In this document: positions 3,761-14,486 of the stretch, piece by piece
How positions within the stretch are numbered: position 1 is the stretch's first letter
How the letters are laid out: every line of letters begins with the position of its first letter
Assembly: GCA_001898095.1 (NCBI GenBank)
Contig: MKSH01000275.1
Coordinates: forward strand, 25,377-44,982
Reading direction: 5' to 3'
DNA length: 19,606 nucleotides
DNA from: Solirubrobacterales bacterium 70-9
GTDB taxonomy: Bacteria; Actinomycetota; Thermoleophilia; Solirubrobacterales; 70-9
The notes under the pieces: model-generated
The model's input: the letters and a program-made list of their open reading frames with translations, nothing else
The model's database searches: none
Told to the model about the DNA's origin: nothing
Made by a program: the position numbers and the translations under genes

Positions 3761-5266
3761 GACGCCGTTGGAGATGTTGCCGACGATCCGCCGTCCCGGC
3801 GCCGAGCCGGTGGCGACGATGACGTGGTCGGGGGCGAGCGCGCGGACCGCCTCCGGGTCGGCGCCGGCGCCGGTCCGCACCTCGACGCCGAGCTTGTCGA
3901 GCTGGACCTCGAGGTGGCGGATGACCTCGGCGATCTCCTCTCGACCTTCGATGCTCGAGGCCAGGCGCAGCTGCCCGCCGAGCCGCTCGCGCCGCTCCAG
4001 CAGCACGGTGTCGAAGCCGCGCCGGGCGCAGACCTCGGCCGCCTTCATCCCCGCCGGGCCGCCGCCGACGACCACCACGCGACCGCCGTCGGCCGGGGCG
4101 GGCGTCAGCGTCCCCTCGCCCAGCTCCAGCTCGTAGCCGGCAGCCGGGTTGTGGACGCAGGTGGTGTGGGTGATCTTGAACAGGCGGTCGATGCAGCCCT
4201 GGTTGCAGGCGATGCAGCCGCGCACGTCCTCGAGCCGGTTCTCGCGGATCTTCGTGACGGTCTCCGGGTCGGCGATGTGCTGGCGGGTCATCGCGATCAG
4301 GTCGGCGCCGCCGTCGCGCAGCACCTGGGCCGCGGCGTAGGGATCGGTGACGCGGCCGACCGCGATCACGGGCACGTCGACCACCTCGCGGAGTTTGGCG
4401 GCGAGGTCGAGCCAGACGCCCTTCGGGTGCTGCATGTCGGGGACGTTCTGGCTCGCCGAGTAGTAGGTGGCGCCCTTGACCACGACGTAGTCGAGCGGGC
4501 CGGTGCCGGTGAGGAGGGCGGCGATCTCCTGCGCGTCCTCGACCTCGAGGCCGCCGGGGCTGAAGTCGTGGCCCTGCATGTTCATCCCGACCAGGTAGTC
4601 GCGGCCAACCGCGTCGCGGACCGCCTCCAGCGCCCGGCGGGCGAAGCGGACGCGGTTCTCGACCGAGCCGCCGTACTCGTCCTCGCGGAAGTTCGAGAAC
4701 GGCGAGAGGAAGGACGCGAGCAGGTAGCCGCCGTAGCCGGAGTGGATCTCGACCCCGTCGAAGCCGCCCTCGCGAGCGTGCACGGCGGCGAGCGCGTGGG
4801 CGGCGACGAGCTCGTCGATGTCCTCGATCTCCATCGCCTTCGGCATCTCCCGGTTCATCGGGCAGGGGATGCTGGAGGGGGCGAAGAGCGCCCGCTCCGA
4901 CCAGGTCGAGGAGGACTGGCGGCCGGTGTGGCCGAGCTGCATGACGATCTTCGTCTCGTACCGGTGGACGGCGTCGGCGATCTTGCGCAGGCCGGGGATC
5001 ACCGCCGGGTCGTAGGCCTGGACCTCGCCAGGGACGTTCTGGGAGCTCGGGTGGATCTGCGGGAAGGCCATGCCGATCAGGCCGACGCCCCCGCGGGCGC
5101 GTTCGCGGTAGTAGGCGGCGTGCTGCTCGGAGGGCAGGTGGTGGTCGGCCATCCCGGTGCCGTGGCCGGTCATCACGATCCGGTTCGGGAGGGTCACCCC
5201 GCCGACCTCGATCGGGTCGAAGAGGATCTGCAGGTCGGTCGGGACAGTGCTCTGGGAGGTCGTCAT
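3758..5266 (-). CDS. FMN/4Fe-4S NADH:flavin oxidoreductase (2,4-dienoyl-CoA reductase/TMADH-like), ended early by in-frame TAG
   Basis: The 502 residues up to the TAG cover an Old-Yellow-Enzyme-type FMN barrel (LFDPIEVGGVTLPNRIVM; GFDGVEIHSGYGGYLL; SPFSNFREDEYGGSVENR). The 4Fe-4S motif follows as C351-X2-C354-X3-C358-X11-C370. Next comes the first FAD-domain strand (VVVVGGGPAGMKAAEVCARRG, about 397-416) and the VIVATGSAP strand. Full-length relatives are about 650-690 residues. Here the frame hits TAG at 3758-3760 and then continues intact for 164 more codons, so this is a single nonsense codon, not a natural domain end. Such enzymes reduce enoyl-CoA or dehydrogenate amines using FMN, Fe-S and FAD. 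ATG at 5264-5266 lacks an SD and lies only about 11 bases past a strong -10, so the mRNA is probably leaderless. Confidence 0.85.
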   Translation of the reverse strand: MTTSQSTVPTDLQILFDPIEVGGVTLPNRIVMTGHGTGMADHHLPSEQHAAYYRERARGGVGLIGMAFPQIHPSSQNVPGEVQAYDPAVIPGLRKIADAVHRYETKIVMQLGHTGRQSSSTWSERALFAPSSIPCPMNREMPKAMEIEDIDELVAAHALAAVHAREGGFDGVEIHSGYGGYLLASFLSPFSNFREDEYGGSVENRVRFARRALEAVRDAVGRDYLVGMNMQGHDFSPGGLEVEDAQEIAALLTGTGPLDYVVVKGATYYSASQNVPDMQHPKGVWLDLAAKLREVVDVPVIAVGRVTDPYAAAQVLRDGGADLIAMTRQHIADPETVTKIRENRLEDVRGCIACNQGCIDRLFKITHTTCVHNPAAGYELELGEGTLTPAPADGGRVVVVGGGPAGMKAAEVCARRGFDTVLLERRERLGGQLRLASSIEGREEIAEVIRHLEVQLDKLGVEVRTGAGADPEAVRALAPDHVIVATGSAPGRRIVGNISNGV

Positions 5267-5363: not shown

Positions 5364-6437
5364 ATGGCCACGCCCAGACCCGACCGCGCCGTGACGATGC
5401 GCGACGTCGCCCTCGCCGCGGGCGTCTCCCAGGCCACCGTCTCCAACGCCTACACCGGCAGCGGCCGGCTCTCCCCCGACCGGCGCGAACACGTCCTCGC
5501 CGTCGCCCGCGAGCTCGGCTACCCGGGGCCGAGCGGCGCCGGGCGCTCGCTGCGGACCGGCAGCACCGGCGCGGTCGGGGTGATGGTCACCGACGCGCTC
5601 ACCTTCGCGCTCGAGGATGCCGCCGCGGTCGAACTGCTGCGCGGGATCGCCGCCGTCGGCGAGGCCCGCGAGGTCGCCCTCACCCTGCTCCCCTTCCCGG
5701 TCGGCGCCGACGAGGCGGCCGCCGCGGCGGCGAGCACCCGGCGCGGGGTGGTCGACGGCTTCCTCGTCTTCTCGATGCCCGACCGCCACCCGGCGGTGGA
5801 AGCGGCGCTCGCCCGCCGCGAGCCGCTGGTGCTGATCGACGGCCCGCGCCTCGACGGGGTGCCGCTGGTCGGCATCGACGACGCGGGGGCGGCGCGCGAG
5901 GCGGCCACCGCGGTGCTCGACGGCGGCCGGCGGCGGGTCGCGGTCCTGGTCGACCGGCTGAGCCCGGACGGCCGCGCGGGAGTCGCCGACGCGGCGCGCC
6001 TGCGCGAGGCCCGTGACCAGGCGGCCCGCGAGCGCGTCGCCGGCTACCTTGCCGCCTGCGAGGCGGTCGGTGCCGAGGCGACCGTGATCGAGGCGGGAGC
6101 GTTCTCCCCGCCCGCCTTCCGCGCCGTCACCGCGGCGGCCCTGGCCCTCGACGGCCTCGACGCGATCTTCGCCGCCACCGACGCCGTCGCCCTCGCTGCC
6201 CTGGCCGAGCTCGACGCCCGCGGCATCGACGTCCCCGGCCAGATCGCCGTCCTCGGCTTCGACGGCACCGCCGAGGCGGCCCGCGTCGGCCTCTCGACCG
6301 TGGACCAGTCGCTGGTCGAGAAGGGAAGCCAGGCGATGCGCATGCTCCTCGCCGCGATCGACCGGACGGAGCCCGAGTCGGTCCTGCTGTCCACCCGTCT
6401 CCAGCTCCGCCGCACCACCGCCCCCGGATTCGGCTGA
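5364..6437 (+). CDS. LacI-family transcriptional regulator
   Basis: The 357-residue product begins with a LacI helix-turn-helix (TMRDVALAAGVSQATVSNAY, residues 11-30). The third helix and hinge follow (LSPDRREHVLAVARELGYP, GRSLRTGSTGAVGVMV). The periplasmic-binding-protein-like effector domain runs from about residue 70 and includes the typical VLGFDGT and LSTVDQSL segments near the C-terminus. Length and domain order are normal for the family. It diverges from the flavin oxidoreductase/GMC pair with a 97-base gap containing a palindromic site, so it most likely represses that pair and responds to a small ligand, classically a sugar. No SD is visible before ATG 5364; a leaderless start or use of the internal ATG at 5397 cannot be excluded. 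It is convergent with the 6954-8426 gene, across the hairpin cluster. Confidence 0.93.
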   Translation: MATPRPDRAVTMRDVALAAGVSQATVSNAYTGSGRLSPDRREHVLAVARELGYPGPSGAGRSLRTGSTGAVGVMVTDALTFALEDAAAVELLRGIAAVGEAREVALTLLPFPVGADEAAAAAASTRRGVVDGFLVFSMPDRHPAVEAALARREPLVLIDGPRLDGVPLVGIDDAGAAREAATAVLDGGRRRVAVLVDRLSPDGRAGVADAARLREARDQAARERVAGYLAACEAVGAEATVIEAGAFSPPAFRAVTAAALALDGLDAIFAATDAVALAALAELDARGIDVPGQIAVLGFDGTAEAARVGLSTVDQSLVEKGSQAMRMLLAAIDRTEPESVLLSTRLQLRRTTAPGFG

Positions 6438-6470
6438 GGCACGGGCCGGGCCGGAAAAGGACGGACAAGG

Positions 6471-6530
6471 GACCCGGCCCTCTCGTAGGCGGTCACAGCC
6501 TGCCCGGACCGCCTACGAGAGGGCCGGGTC
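6471..6530. repeat. Hairpin A: perfect 23-bp inverted repeat, 14-nt loop
   Basis: Arms 6471-6493 and 6508-6530 are perfectly complementary. The arm reads GACCCGGCCC then TCTCGTAGGCGGT. The loop is CA plus CAGCCTGCCCGG (6496-6507), and the same 12-mer occurs in the loop of hairpin C. It lies 33 nt after the LacI stop and may terminate that transcript, although no T-run follows. Confidence 0.9.
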
Positions 6531-6636
6531 TCGGGGGGACTGCCGAGGGTGCGGGTCCTGTGCGGGTCACGGCGGAGGGACGTGACGAAGTGCGCGGGTC
6601 CGGTGCGGAACTCCGCGTCCCTTGAGGAGGTCCGGA

Positions 6637-6686
6637 CGCGCTCTCGACTTTCACCCTGCCCTGGCAAGGTGAAAGTCGAGAGCGCG
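6637..6686. repeat. Hairpin B: perfect 19-bp inverted repeat, 12-nt loop
   Basis: Arms 6637-6655 (CGCGCTCTCGACTTTCACC) and 6668-6686 are perfectly complementary around CTGCCCTGGCAA. It shares the TCTCG/CGAGA stem segment and the CCTGCCC loop-proximal core with hairpins A and C, but its inner stem (ACTTTCACC) is unrelated to theirs. Confidence 0.9.
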
Positions 6687-6692
6687 ATGCCC

Positions 6693-6729
6693 TCGACTTT
6701 TTCCCACCCCCCGGCCTGGAAAAGGTCGA
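6693..6729. repeat. Hairpin B2: imperfect 12-bp inverted repeat
   Basis: TCGACTTTTTCC (6693-6704) pairs with GGAAAAGGTCGA (6718-6729) with one mismatch (a T:G opposition) around a 13-base C-rich loop. The TCGACTTT core resembles the arm of hairpin B next to it, so it may be a decayed copy. Confidence 0.65.
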
Positions 6730-6778
6730 CCGCGCGTCCCGACCTGCGCCCGGACCCGCGCACTTCCCCCCGGAAGGC

Positions 6779-6844
6779 TCGCGTCCTGGGCGTCTCGCGG
6801 CGGCCGCAGCCTGCCCGGGCCGCCGCGAGACGCCCGGGACGCGA
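6779..6844. repeat. Hairpin C: 27-bp inverted repeat with one G:T opposition
   Basis: Arms 6779-6805 and 6818-6844 pair with a single T/G mismatch. The central part is TCTCG, CGGCGGC, then CG and CAGCCTGCCCGG (6807-6818), then GCCGCCG and CGAGA. This is the layout of hairpin A with an altered but still complementary inner stem. Confidence 0.9.
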
Positions 6845-6876
6845 CCGTCCCCGGCCGCAGGCGCACCGAAGCACGC

Positions 6877-6943
6877 CGTCCCCACCTGGCGTTCGCAGTT
6901 ACCCGTACCGGCTACGGGGAACTGCGAACGCCAGGTGGGGACG
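6877..6943. repeat. Hairpin D: perfect 24-bp inverted repeat with nested inner stem
   Basis: Arms 6877-6900 and 6920-6943 are perfectly complementary, with an arm core of CCACCTGGCGTTCGCAGTT. Inside the loop CCCGTA and TACGGG pair again around CCGGC. It ends 10 nt beyond the stop of the minus-strand ALDH-like gene and is the best terminator candidate for it. Confidence 0.9.
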
Positions 6944-6953
6944 TGGGGTCGGC

Positions 6954-8426
6954 CTAGTCGACCCTGCCGGCCACCGGCTGCGTGAAGACGCGCCAATCGG
7001 GGGCCGTGGCGGCGGCGACCTCAGCTTCGGTGGGACAGGTGCCGAGGGCAACGAAGCCGCGGTCGGAGCCGAGGGCGGCGAGGAAGCGGGAGCGTTCGGC
7101 GGCGTCGCCGCCGAGGAGCGCCGACCAGGAACGGGGCATCGCGTCGCGGTGGGCAAGCGCCTCCTCGAGGTCGGCGTAGGAGGCGAGGAAGAGGACCGGC
7201 GCGCGCACCGCGGCGAGCGTCGCGGGGTCGGGCGCGGCCGGCAGGCGGACGAGGGCAGGCTCGGCGAAATAGGCATCGGAAAAGGCGGCGAGGTCGCGGT
7301 CCTCGCCGCCGGCAAGTAGCTCGCCGCCCTCGGCTTCGGCGGACTGGACGGCGTCGAGGTGGTCGCGATAGGCGTCGAGGTCGGGCAGCGGCCCGAGCGC
7401 CGTCGCCGAATCGAGCGGGTCGCCGATCTGCAACGCAGCGATGGCGTCGCCCAACCGCCGCTCCAGGTCGGCGACGAGCGACTCGTGGACGAGCAGCAGC
7501 CGCAGCGCCGCCGACGAGCGGCCCGCGCCGGCCACGGTCACCGCGAGCGCCTCGCGGGCGACGAGGTCCAGGTCGGCCCCCGGCGCCGCGATCGCGACGT
7601 TGGCCGCCGGCGCAGGCGGCCGAACCGTGAGCGCGATCGCGTCCTCGCCGGCGAGCGCCTCCGCCGCATCGGCCTCGCCGAGCACGAGCGAGTGGAGTCC
7701 CGCCGAACCGGTAGAGCTTGTCCAACCCGTGGCGGCGAGAGCGGAGGCGACCAGGGCGGCGACGGCGGTCGCGACCAGAGGGGCGCCGGGGAGCCAGACG
7801 ACCGGGTCGCCGCAGGCGAGCGCCGGCGGCGCGGCGGTCGCCCAGTCGAGCAGCGGCAGCTCGGCCGAGCCGAGGACGGCGACGGGTCCAAGCGGGCGCC
7901 GGACGGCGAAGCGACCGGTCTGCATCGGAACCCGAAAGGCGGCGGCCGGCGGCGCGGGGGACGCGGTGGCGGGGAGCGCGGCGACCTCTTGGGCGGTGGT
8001 GGCGGCGCTCGCGCAGGCATCGACGGCTGCCCCGACCTCGGCGCGCGCGGCCGTGAGGGGCTTTCCGGTCTCGATCGTGATCAGGTCCGCCAGCTCGGGA
8101 GCGTAGCGGTCCAGGGCGGCGGCGATCGCCGTCACGGCGGCGGCGCGGGACTCGGGGGCGGCAGTGCGCCACTCGGTGAAGGCCGTCGCCGCTCGGGCCG
8201 CGGCGGCGATCGCGTCGGCGGCGCTTGCGCCTTCGAGGGCGGCGACCTCCTCGCCGTCGATCGGGGACGTCACCGGGATGGCGGCGCCGTCCGCCACGGC
8301 GGGCTCTACCCCGCACGCCCGCAGCGCGGCGAGAGCGCGATCGCGGGGCGCCTCAGCCGGCCGCCCGGTCGGTCCCTCGCCCGTCGGCTCGCCGGCGGGC
8401 TCGGTCGGCAGTGGTCCGGAGGTCAT
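6954..8426 (-). CDS. Catalytically degenerate aldehyde-dehydrogenase-fold protein
   Basis: The 490-residue length and overall pattern are those of the ALDH superfamily: SPIDGEEVAALEGAS, DLITIETGKPLTAARAEV (about 114-131), RRPLGPVAVLGSAELPLL, VVWLPGAPL and ALRLLLVHESL. Every expected active-site residue is changed. The NAD-binding Lys of VVxKP is Leu212. The oxyanion Asn in the PWN/PFN motif aligns to Glu189. The ELGG general-base motif is replaced by Pro/Ala-rich sequence (PPAPAANVAIA). The nucleophilic Cys of GQRC aligns to Ser304/305 (GRSSAALR). The frame is open and its base composition matches its neighbours, so it seems maintained rather than decaying. The ATG lies 12 nt after the FadR stop, suggesting co-transcription. 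It might be a pseudoenzyme partner or sensor for the hydroxyproline pathway; that is inference. The N-terminal 25 residues are low-complexity. Confidence 0.8.
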   Translation of the reverse strand: MTSGPLPTEPAGEPTGEGPTGRPAEAPRDRALAALRACGVEPAVADGAAIPVTSPIDGEEVAALEGASAADAIAAAARAATAFTEWRTAAPESRAAAVTAIAAALDRYAPELADLITIETGKPLTAARAEVGAAVDACASAATTAQEVAALPATASPAPPAAAFRVPMQTGRFAVRRPLGPVAVLGSAELPLLDWATAAPPALACGDPVVWLPGAPLVATAVAALVASALAATGWTSSTGSAGLHSLVLGEADAAEALAGEDAIALTVRPPAPAANVAIAAPGADLDLVAREALAVTVAGAGRSSAALRLLLVHESLVADLERRLGDAIAALQIGDPLDSATALGPLPDLDAYRDHLDAVQSAEAEGGELLAGGEDRDLAAFSDAYFAEPALVRLPAAPDPATLAAVRAPVLFLASYADLEEALAHRDAMPRSWSALLGGDAAERSRFLAALGSDRGFVALGTCPTEAEVAAATAPDWRVFTQPVAGRVD

Positions 8427-10294: not shown

Positions 10295-11361
10295 GGTTCG
10301 AGCGCGTCCTCCGCACGGTCGACGCCCACTGCGAGGGCGAGGCCACCCGGGTCGTCGTCGGCGGCCTCGTCGACGTCCCCGGCGAGACCCTCTTCGACAA
10401 ACGCCGCTACCTCGAAACCGAGCGCGACGACCTCCGGCAGACCCTGCTCTTCGAGCCGCGCGGCCAGTCCTGCCTCTCCGCCGTCTTCGTCTTCCCCTCC
10501 CACGACCCGGCGGCCGATCTCGGCTTCGTGATCATGGAGGGCACCGACTATCCGCCGATGTCGGGGACGAACACGATCAACACCGTCACCGTCCTGCTGG
10601 AGACGGGGATGCTGCCGATGGTCGAACCGCTGACCGAGCTGACCCTGGAGACGCCCGCCGGGCTGGTCGGCGTGACCGCCCTCTGCCAGGACGGCAAGTG
10701 CGTCGAGGTGACCTTCCGCAACGTGCCCTCCTTCGCCACCCACCTCGACGCCAAGGTCGAGGTCGAGGGCCACGGCACGCTTTCCTGCGACGTCGCCTAC
10801 GGCGGTCACTTCTTCGGCCTCGTCGACGCCAACCAGCTCGGCTTCGAGATCGTCGCCGAGGAGGCCCACGACCTGGCCGGCCTCGGCGAGCGGATCAAGA
10901 CCGCGATCGGCGAGCAGCTCGACGTCTCCCACCCCGGCAACCCCGGCATCCACGACATCGGCCTCTTCGTCTGGACCGGCAGGCCGCTGGTCGGCGGCAC
11001 CGCCCGCAACGCGACCGTGGTCAGCCCCGGCCGCATCGACCGCTCCCCCTGTGGCACCGCGACCACCGCCCGGATGACGACGATGGCGGCGCGCGGCGAG
11101 CTCGCGCGCGGCGAGGCCTTCATCCACGAGAGCATCCTCTCCACCACCTTCCGCGGTGAGATCGTCGAGCCGGTCCGGGTAGGGGACCAGGACGGCGTCG
11201 TCACGCAGGTGACCGGACGCGCCTGGATCTACGCGATGCAGACGCTCGGCATCGACCCCACCGACCCCTTCCCGACCGGCTACACCCTGAGCGACACCTG
11301 GGGCACCGCCGCCCCGCGCCCCTTCGACCCGGCGACCACCGATCCCCAGAATGAGAGGTAG
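10291..11361 (+). CDS. Proline racemase family enzyme, probable 4-hydroxyproline 2-epimerase
   Basis: The 356-residue product shows the family hallmarks TVDAHCEGEATRVVVGG (residues 9-25), MEGTDYPPMSGTNTIN (82-97) and DRSPCGTATTARM (250-262). The usual first catalytic Cys of the MCGH-type motif is Ser91, while the second is Cys254. Ser/Cys members exist in this family beside Cys/Cys epimerases and Cys/Thr trans-3-hydroxyproline dehydratases. Retention of the second Cys argues against the dehydratase. The likely reaction is trans-4-hydroxy-L-proline to cis-4-hydroxy-D-proline, feeding the deaminase encoded just upstream. The start overlaps the upstream stop (ATGA) and the aldehyde dehydrogenase begins three bases after its TAG. 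Whether the enzyme acts on 4- or 3-hydroxyproline or another proline derivative cannot be settled from sequence alone. Confidence 0.88.
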   Translation: MRFERVLRTVDAHCEGEATRVVVGGLVDVPGETLFDKRRYLETERDDLRQTLLFEPRGQSCLSAVFVFPSHDPAADLGFVIMEGTDYPPMSGTNTINTVTVLLETGMLPMVEPLTELTLETPAGLVGVTALCQDGKCVEVTFRNVPSFATHLDAKVEVEGHGTLSCDVAYGGHFFGLVDANQLGFEIVAEEAHDLAGLGERIKTAIGEQLDVSHPGNPGIHDIGLFVWTGRPLVGGTARNATVVSPGRIDRSPCGTATTARMTTMAARGELARGEAFIHESILSTTFRGEIVEPVRVGDQDGVVTQVTGRAWIYAMQTLGIDPTDPFPTGYTLSDTWGTAAPRPFDPATTDPQNER

Positions 11362-12811: not shown

Positions 12812-14440
12812 ATGGGCGAGCGGTTGGAAGCAGACGTCGTGGTGATCGGCTCCGGTCCGTCGGGGTCGATCGTCACCCACACCCTGGCGACCGCCGGGGT
12901 CGACGTCGTCTGCCTCGAGCAGGGCGACTGGATCAACCCCTCGGACTTCGGCACCAACGAGCCCGAGTGGGAGCTCTCGATCCAGCAGCGGTGGGCGCAC
13001 GACCCGAACGTGCGCATGGCGCCCGCCGACTACCCGGTCGAGGTGAGCGACTCCGACATGTGGCCGGTGATGCTGAACGCGGTCGGCGGCACCAGCCTCT
13101 TCTACGGCGCCGAGTGGGTGCGGCTGATGGCGAGCGACTTCCGCCTGCGCAGCTCGGAGGGGATCTGCGACGACTGGCCGATCTCCTACGCGGAGCTGAA
13201 GCCCTTCCACGACGAGGTCGACGCCTTCCTCGGCGTCGCGGGCGTCGGCGGCGACCCGGCCTACCCGGAGGGCCTCGACTACCCGATGCCGCCGCACCCG
13301 ATCGGCAAGGTCGGGATGAAGGCGGCGGAAGGCGTGAACAAGCTCGGCTGGCACTGGTGGCCGGGCGTGAACGCGATCGCCGTCAACCGCCACAAGACGC
13401 TGGAGCGCTGCCTCCGCCACGGCGTCTGCGAGTGGGGCTGCCCGGCCGGGGCGAAGGCCTCCTTCGACCTGATCTACCTGCCGCAGGCGATCGCCGCCGG
13501 CGCCCGCCTCCTCACCGGCGCGCGGGTGAGCCGGATCGAGAGCGGGCCCGACGGGCTCGCCACCGGCGCCCACTTCGTCGACCGCGAAGGCGAGGAGAAC
13601 TTCGTCGCCGCGAAGGCGGTGGTGGTCTGCGCGAACGGGATCGGCACGCCGCGCCTGCTGCTCCTCTCCGACGGCCCCGCCCACCCGGACGGGCTCGCCA
13701 ACTCCTCCGGCCTGGTCGGCAAGAACCTGATGCTGCACCCGAACTGCACGGTGACCGGCTACTACGACGAGGACCTCGAAAGCTGGAAGGGCCCGGTGGG
13801 CGAGTCGATCCACTCGATGGAGTTCTACGAGACCCGTCCCGAGCACGACTTCGTCCGCGGCGGCAAGATGAACGTCCTCCCCACGCCCGGCCCGCTGGCG
13901 GCGGTCGAGGCGCACCGCGACCAGCCCTTCGACCAGGTGTGGGGACCGGCCTTCGCCGACGTCGCCGCCCGCCACCGCAGCGGCATCCTCTGGGCGACGA
14001 ACACCGAGGACCTGCCGGAGGAGACGAACCGGGTGACGCTCGACCCGACCCTCACCGACGGCGACGGGGTGCCGGCGCCGAAGGTCTCCTACCGGATCAG
14101 CGACAACACCCGCCGGATCCTCGACTTCCACGTCGAGCGGATGACGGAGCTGCACGAAGCCTCGGGGGCGAGCGAGATGATCGCGGTCGACGTCTGGCTC
14201 GACCAGCCCGGCCACCTGCTCGGCACCGCGCGAATGGGCGACGACCCGGAGCGCTCGGTGGTCGACTCCTACGGGCGGGCGCACGACGTGCCGAACCTGT
14301 TCGTCGCCGACGGCAGCATCTTCGTCACCGGCGGCGCCGCCAACCCGACCTCGACGATCACCGCGCTGGCCCTGCGGATCGCGAAGCACATCGTCGCCAC
14401 CGCGGCCGAGCGGCCGACCGCCGGCGGGGTCGCTCGATGA
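12812..14440 (+). CDS. GMC-family FAD dehydrogenase large subunit (gluconate/glucose dehydrogenase-like)
   Basis: The 542-residue protein has VVVIGSGPSGSIV (residues 8-21), NAVGGTSLFYGAEWVR (89-104) and a cysteine cluster C200-X5-C206-X3-C210-P. The GMC C-terminus has HLLGTARMG, SVVDSYGRAHDVPNLFVADGS and GAANPTSTITALALRIA. The cysteine spacing and the adjacent subunit-3-like gene match membrane-linked FAD dehydrogenases such as gluconate 2-dehydrogenase and FAD-glucose dehydrogenase, where these cysteines carry an Fe-S cluster. No Tat signal is apparent, and no cytochrome c subunit is encoded nearby. In this operon it may supply the otherwise missing oxidation of cis-4-hydroxy-D-proline, or handle another hydroxylated substrate; both are inferences. 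ATG lies four bases after the ALDH stop and has no SD, implying coupling. Confidence 0.9.
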   Translation: MGERLEADVVVIGSGPSGSIVTHTLATAGVDVVCLEQGDWINPSDFGTNEPEWELSIQQRWAHDPNVRMAPADYPVEVSDSDMWPVMLNAVGGTSLFYGAEWVRLMASDFRLRSSEGICDDWPISYAELKPFHDEVDAFLGVAGVGGDPAYPEGLDYPMPPHPIGKVGMKAAEGVNKLGWHWWPGVNAIAVNRHKTLERCLRHGVCEWGCPAGAKASFDLIYLPQAIAAGARLLTGARVSRIESGPDGLATGAHFVDREGEENFVAAKAVVVCANGIGTPRLLLLSDGPAHPDGLANSSGLVGKNLMLHPNCTVTGYYDEDLESWKGPVGESIHSMEFYETRPEHDFVRGGKMNVLPTPGPLAAVEAHRDQPFDQVWGPAFADVAARHRSGILWATNTEDLPEETNRVTLDPTLTDGDGVPAPKVSYRISDNTRRILDFHVERMTELHEASGASEMIAVDVWLDQPGHLLGTARMGDDPERSVVDSYGRAHDVPNLFVADGSIFVTGGAANPTSTITALALRIAKHIVATAAERPTAGGVAR

Positions 14441-14486
14441 GCGCGGTGCGGCCATCGAGCGGAGCGGTGGGATGAGCGCCGTGCGG
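14437..14486 (+). repeat. Duplicated start-codon segment (35-base offset)
   Basis: ATGAGCGCGGTGCGG at 14437-14451 recurs as ATGAGCGCCGTGCGG at 14472-14486, 14 of 15 bases identical. The first copy overlaps the GMC stop (ATGA) but is out of frame and encodes only 12 residues, ending in a TGA that overlaps the second ATG. It looks like a small duplication that displaced the original overlap. Confidence 0.6.

Follow-up and report, generated by a model that had tools for sequence, protein, structure and literature searches.

BOX elements of Streptococcus pneumoniae are built from a boxA module, a variable boxB module and a boxC module, and are 67–637 bp long (PMC3049150). They are presented there as MITE-like units lacking a transposase of their own, which fold if transcribed and are over-represented between convergent genes. 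REPINs are extragenic, high-copy units made up of two hairpin-forming elements in inverted orientation, and 93 % of REP doublets are inverted, with a spacing of about 71–110 bp (PMC3116915). In the two REP superfamilies treated in PMC3733652, stem changes are complementary, some loops are fixed and head-to-head dimers predominate. Stems are 5–13 bp in the GTAG REPs and 8–9 bp in the CGTC REPs, the latter with loops of 4–5, a tag remains unpaired, and the CGTC REPs are said to have no known transposase, with their mover left open (PMC3733652). BIMEs, as set out in PMC2817692, are mosaics in which the palindromes (REPs) of an array alternate in orientation.

The window analysed here, a stretch of 19,606 nt from Solirubrobacterales bacterium 70-9, includes at 6438–6953 one copy of a dispersed composite repeat of roughly 500 bases that is restricted to one clade. 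As in BOX, the repeat is composite, with two fixed but differing end modules (slots A/X and C) around an exchangeable interior (slots B and D), lies in a similar size range, is over-represented in convergent gaps, would fold if transcribed and may be MITE-like; the loci fetched included no autonomous copy. Unlike in BOX, the end modules are two long, mutually related hairpins whose shared constant loop is oriented oppositely in each, the interior is drawn from several unrelated kinds of palindrome and the hosts are GC-rich actinobacteria; the likeness drawn here is one of architecture. As in REPINs, the hairpins form inverted pairs (91 of 94 with both loops outward), but the ends are hairpins of ~60 nt rather than short REPs, the unit is several hundred bases long and a Y1 transposase was not found among the 12 genus genomes searched. 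It shares with BIMEs a mosaic of palindromes, but in place of REPs at regular spacing it has a fixed, polar module at either end. The complementary stem changes, fixed loop and head-to-head arrangement recall the GTAG and CGTC REPs, though none of the copies examined has GTAG at the foot of its hairpins and the stems are ~24 bp, not 5–13 bp; CGTC at the foot of hairpin C is paired, with a stem of about 24 and a loop of 12. Related hairpins lie inverted near the ends, as MITE terminal inverted repeats do, but with tandem-repeat flanks outside them. We place the element among the composite palindromic repeats, BOX- and REPIN-like in its working but lacking defining features of both REP superfamilies. 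No prior description for this bacterial group was found in the open-licence PMC literature.

Structure of the copy in the window

The 516-nt gap between two convergent genes is filled by the element copy (Table 1). The + strand of the gap folds at −376.1 kcal/mol compared to −270.05 for shuffled sequences (sd 6.28, n=100; z −16.9), and no Rfam family matched within the window at the gathering score. The original prediction, made from the sequence of the window, had described three hairpins (A, B and C) as one family. The composite dispersed element is larger than that observation, and hairpins D and E and a 17-bp exact inverted repeat were absent from its count. Hairpins A and C do belong to one family, and the 12-mer that they were said to share exactly, CAGCCTGCCCGG, is present at 6497–6508 and 6808–6819. 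Hairpin B belongs to a separate family, its slot being filled by other palindromes elsewhere, and the CCTGCCC taken for its loop core lies largely within the stem, where most of these bases pair with GGCAAGG. The loop of hairpin C, read outward, is GCAGCCTGCCCG. A hairpin of the same type as E was also found at the L079 site without the remainder of the element and, for this reason, E may be resident sequence and not a component of the mobile unit. The linkers of the window element include a 31-nt unit in three degenerate direct copies (6545–6575, 6588–6618 and 6773–6803).

Table 1. Features of the element copy in the window and its neighbouring genes
Feature	Position	Strand	Basis or description
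Left neighbour, LacI-family gene	5364–6437	+	Gene calls, Pfam
Whole element copy	6438–6953	+	Own-genome search, gene calls, Pfam
End hairpin A (left end)	6471–6530	.	24/24 bp stem, loop 6495–6506
Left arm of 17-bp exact inverted repeat enclosing B and D	6587–6603	.	
Interior palindrome B, exchangeable slot	6637–6686	.	24-bp stem with one mismatch, 2-nt centre
Imperfect interior hairpin D, exchangeable slot	6693–6729	.	
Right arm of 17-bp exact inverted repeat enclosing B and D	6750–6766	.	
End hairpin C (right end)	6779–6844	+	27-bp stem with one non-Watson–Crick pair, loop 6806–6817
Hairpin E	6877–6943	.	GCGTTCGCA type, adjoins the stop codon of the right gene
Right neighbour, aldehyde dehydrogenase gene	6954–8426	−	Gene calls, Pfam

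A dispersed family with a variable interior

When the genome from which the window comes (4.2 Mb in 278 contigs, 84 % complete, 5.7 % contamination) was searched with the element, 153 matches were obtained, and the 40 places scored out of 282 candidates were merged into 40 loci that include the window. The best other copy shares 88 % identity across query positions 16–495. The motif TCTCGN{4,9}GGYCACAGCCTGCC occurs 170 times in this genome, 85 times on each strand, and its reversed control not at all. These copies, together with covariance-model matches in six genomes of the genus, bear out the suggestion of a REP-like dispersed palindromic family, and with the fold energy the motif counts put the resemblance between hairpins beyond chance.

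A complete element consists of two hairpins of ~60 nt, each with a stem of ~24 bp and a 12-nt loop, ACAGCCTGCC[C/A]G, flanking interchangeable interior palindromes. One end carries an A or X stem and the other a C-type stem. The slot-A hairpin was recognised by eye in 36 of the 40 loci and the slot-C hairpin in 20, some of the loci being truncated at contig ends or by stretches of N. The palindromes in slots B and D differ from copy to copy among the 40 loci, and the centre of slot B is ct in some copies and its complement ag in others. In two loci (L053 and L066), the left and right outer arms of slot B come from different variants, CTGAGTGAG and CTCATGCAG, which suggests recombination via the hairpin centre.

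Several carrier species also have, inside and near elements, hairpins of a separate family, GTTGATGGGCCGAAAA...TTTTCGGCCCATCAAC, whose small centres are A/T-rich, e.g. ctatatc/gatatag (L077 4581–4629 and 17573–17621, L084 6988–7036, L023 274–324 and L238 about 3930–4015). Degenerate tandem repeats of roughly 35–45 bp lie outside both end hairpins in L145, L165, L167, L030 and others in G006, where the flanking units are of the AAGCTGTCGCCCG type on the left and of the CATCTCGGACGGGTG type on the right, and because of them the outer borders of the element are blurred. Many hairpins are located no more than a few hundred bases from contig ends (G009:C55:233, C43:289 and C50:243; G006:C13:66 and C26:76). 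The repeat thus seems to break assemblies, and the true copy number is probably above that counted. Two stem subfamilies, GAGGCGGCC and TAGGCGGTC, are both present on contig C65 (L079), at 10977–11038 and 14408–14467, and hence coexist in one genome and do not reflect contamination.

Distribution

A covariance model was positive in six of 50 family genomes, all six belonging to the genus of the window and each with at least 105–109 scored matches among its best 109 candidates. The remaining 44, namely the other six genus genomes and 38 further family genomes, gave no match. Across the order, under stricter filters, 7 of 201 genomes were positive, and these were the six carriers and G116, which had a single marginal match (E 6e-4). 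A GTDB scan returned at least 80 loci, among which 79 were in five Actinomycetota/Solirubrobacterales metagenome assemblies. One further locus among these, L226 from Bifidobacterium, is not palindromic and was taken as chance. Viral contigs contained no match to one hairpin pattern. Among the genomes covered, the element is restricted to one clade. Within the genus, assemblies of carriers are 3.8–4.7 Mb and those of non-carriers 2.4–3.4 Mb, and in an rpoB tree of the 7 of 12 genus genomes that yielded the gene, the three carriers among them form one side of a branch with support of 99/99.

Orthologous sites were found that carry the element in one species and lack it in another. G003 is occupied where the ortholog in G000 lacks the A–C unit and retains an E-type hairpin, G003 and G000 are each occupied at sites that are empty in G006, and G006 carries an element of ~830 bp where the stop codons overlap in G003. 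G000 and G007 are each occupied at sites where G002 lacks the element, and this non-carrier had the empty state at all four of the compared sites, out of five. At one site G000 and G006 are both occupied, with elements in opposite orientations. Presence and absence between species prove neither movement nor its direction, as deletion is possible at each site. No reproducible target-site duplication was seen in five occupied/empty comparisons, which were too diverged or, at the stop codons, ambiguous.

Location at convergent gene ends

The element shows a preference for convergent gene ends. Where both neighbours were called (81 elements), 53 were convergent, 24 tandem and four divergent, with 13 more elements at contig edges. 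The first gene caller gave 22 convergent, 12 tandem and two divergent positions, and four without a call, for the 40 own-genome loci, and a model trained on 545 genes gave 42 convergent, 16 tandem and four divergent for 62 pairs with both neighbours. An earlier gene model for G006 and G007, trained on scant and element-rich DNA, had given mostly divergent contexts and was dropped, the 545-gene model placing these mostly in convergent gaps. In a census of 20 contigs picked by number (189 kb), 5 of 24 convergent gaps contained constant-loop hairpins, as did 2 of 93 tandem gaps and 1 of 22 divergent ones, but none of the 217 gaps of G002 or the 117 of G012. The median length of convergent gaps is 623 bp with an element (73 gaps) compared to 36.5 bp for those without one in the same species (72 gaps). 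TAG was the stop codon in 95 of 146 cases beside elements as against 59 of 144 at element-less convergent gaps (p 0.0007, stratified by species); in G009 the TAG frequency was no different between the two.

A constant loop on changing stems

The stems covary while the loop is fixed. In 21 distinct hairpins from six species, aligned to a structure that we specified, 94.7 % of 450 cells were paired and 46 cells at 10 pairs were altered on both sides. Since the rows had been preselected for hairpin pairing (13 or more of 18 pairs), the pairing level is partly a product of selection, and it is the two-sided changes that constitute the evidence. In 500 shuffles, neither of the first two cell measures was ever reached, nor was the covariation score, and one shuffle reached the pair count, while the number of further pair types was not above that in shuffles (61 of 500 reached it). 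Sliding the partner by 1–3 columns brought pairing down to 33.6–46.9 %. In a larger set of 314 hairpins, two-sided cells were Watson–Crick in 152 cases and not in 10. Stems are species-specific, mostly CTCATGGCGCTC in G006 and CTCATGGGGGTC in G007 among the places listed, and the same loop dominates across species with differing stems. The stem covariation that had been read from three hairpins is thus confirmed by the model.

The orientation of the loops is also largely fixed. Among adjacent hairpins less than 900 bp apart, 91 of 94 pairs are (−,+), with ACAGCC outward in both loops, and three are (+,+). In a smaller set 68 of 71 pairs are outward, with the window copy among the three exceptions, and among the motif places listed 25 of 26 close pairs read by eye are (−,+) and one is (+,+). 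The equal orientation of loops A and C is therefore a peculiarity of the window copy. The outer parts of its hairpin A are in the usual orientation and the loop alone is inverted, as in L060, and it is because of this inversion that the 12-mer appears in both A and C. Inverted loops were found in 2 of 36 slot-A hairpins (the window and L060) and 1 of 20 slot-C hairpins (L040). In the small inversions of plastid genomes, a loop flips between inverted arms that remain unchanged. Hairpin A of the window resembles these, but here the flip concerns a repeat family and is rare in it (3 of 94 pairs).

Mismatches within the stems were examined with both arms read in loop orientation. For 211 hairpins, the non-Watson–Crick cells among the inner 18 bp comprised 66 G.T, 6 A.C and 61 other; the corresponding figures were 36, 6 and 27 for distinct mismatch events and 32, 6 and 23 for single-arm departures from the species consensus. 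Single-arm events in the 314 hairpins numbered 34, 12 and 51 (p 0.0016), so that the G.T:A.C ratio, at first 36:6, fell to 34:12 in this larger set, where it is 23:11 (p 0.058) for changes private to one hairpin and 11:1 for shared variants. Part of the excess may be mutational, as the flanks, which are C-rich, show an excess of C>T over G>A (53:5 and 29:17). A>G is not in excess over T>C in the flanks (4:9 and 5:9); within the hairpins the ratio is 12:2 in single-arm events of the first set and 9:6 in private changes of the second. G.T is the better mismatch in DNA as well as in RNA. The remaining excess is consistent with selection for folding of a single strand, either RNA or ssDNA, that acts mainly on spreading variants. 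Of the structured RNA that had been proposed for this region, one RNA across the whole block was rejected, as the interior varies by copy and is not common to species. For the two end hairpins only, and with the above caveats, the data support folding as a single strand (RNA or ssDNA) in a strand-specific manner.

Origin of the element and alternative explanations

We consider the best explanation to be a mobile, non-autonomous palindromic element that resembles BOX and REPINs and has a hairpin at either end (probability about 0.6). In its favour are the dispersion in many copies, the restriction to one clade, the outward loops, the compensatory stem changes around a fixed loop, the stems peculiar to species, the occupied and empty sites together with the site filled in opposite orientations, the convergent positions, the TAG enrichment and the G.T excess, greater for shared than for private variants. 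Against it stand the absence of a mover among the families searched and of an autonomous copy among the fetched loci, the want of a repeatable target-site duplication and the blurred outer borders. Its ends would be the related ~60-nt hairpins with their near-invariant ACAGCCTGCC loop, set as inverted repeats with each loop outward, and the palindromes between them would be changeable cargo. An enzyme would recognise the ACAGCC strand of each end, folded on itself and always of the same polarity, copy the unit and insert it at the 3′ ends of genes, where it would do little damage. The interior palindromes may be two-way terminators that make insertion tolerable, since slot-B-type palindromes also occur on their own in convergent gaps within the genus (L076 5107–5138 and a similar one in G002). 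The RAYT-type transposase that had been expected did not materialise. Two mover families, PF01797 and PF00078, were searched for. The Y1 transposase (RAYT family, PF01797) was found in none of the 12 genus genomes, the assemblies of which are incomplete, compared to 5 of 14 control genomes. The reverse transcriptase (PF00078) was found in two of the 12, one carrier and one non-carrier, and shows no association with the element. That the element further represents an undescribed class of miniature element, with long hairpin ends read via a 12-nt loop that is constant and lies on a strand of set polarity, an undiscovered non-Y1 enzyme, insertion at convergent stops and two-way terminators as cargo, is a tentative proposition that we would currently doubt.

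The main rival to a mobile element, which we consider unlikely, is a 3′-end device run by the host between convergent genes, either a bidirectional terminator or an mRNA-protecting cassette, in which the transcript would cross the element and end at the far hairpin, the loop of which would then read ACAGCC, while gene conversion keeps the copies alike. The convergent position of 53 of the 81 elements, the loop polarity, which suits the far hairpin of each transcript, the excess of G.T over A.C and the solitary slot-B-type palindromes in convergent gaps would all be expected of such a device. However, the GC hairpin followed immediately by a T run that marks an intrinsic terminator was not seen by eye at A or C, and a terminator scan, which cannot score 12-nt loops, returned a single weak site (6462–6476, − strand) compared to 0.3 expected. 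Furthermore, half of the genus lacks the element, and the private stem changes (23:11) are without clear polarity. In the 24 tandem elements, hairpins are no better preserved on the transcribed strand (G.T/A.C/other 16/1/9) than on the opposite one (14/3/5), which argues against a strong role in host transcripts after insertion.

Two further explanations address the palindromes themselves. Template switching or arm-to-arm recombination could perfect palindromes and flip loops in passive repeats whose fold has no function, and the inverted loops (window A, L060 A and L040 C) and the mixed slot-B arms of L053 and L066 are what such repair would leave behind. We nevertheless regard it as improbable as the whole explanation, because it accounts neither for the constancy of the loop over six species amid stem change, nor for the outward polarity, nor for occupied and empty sites. 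Less probable still, to the point of being very doubtful, is a kissing interaction. Outward loops are reverse complements, so that loop A could pair with loop C on one strand and join the ends, and 68 of 71 and 91 of 94 pairs have the complementary orientation, but the loops within an element are no better matched than those of shuffled elements (11.338 and 11.320 of 12, p 0.34, in a test of low power), the G.T signal tracks the loop strand, which is opposite at the two ends, and the window copy is itself incapable of kissing.

Implications

What moves palindromic repeats that have no RAYT partner is a question raised for the CGTC REPs in PMC3733652, and one on which this family bears. The combination of stem covariation with a fixed loop and a fixed polarity offers a way to distinguish selection for a folded single strand from the repair of palindromes alone. 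With many copies in one clade, sites that vary between occupied and empty, and a rigid end signature, comparison of the six carriers with the six non-carriers could reveal the mover.
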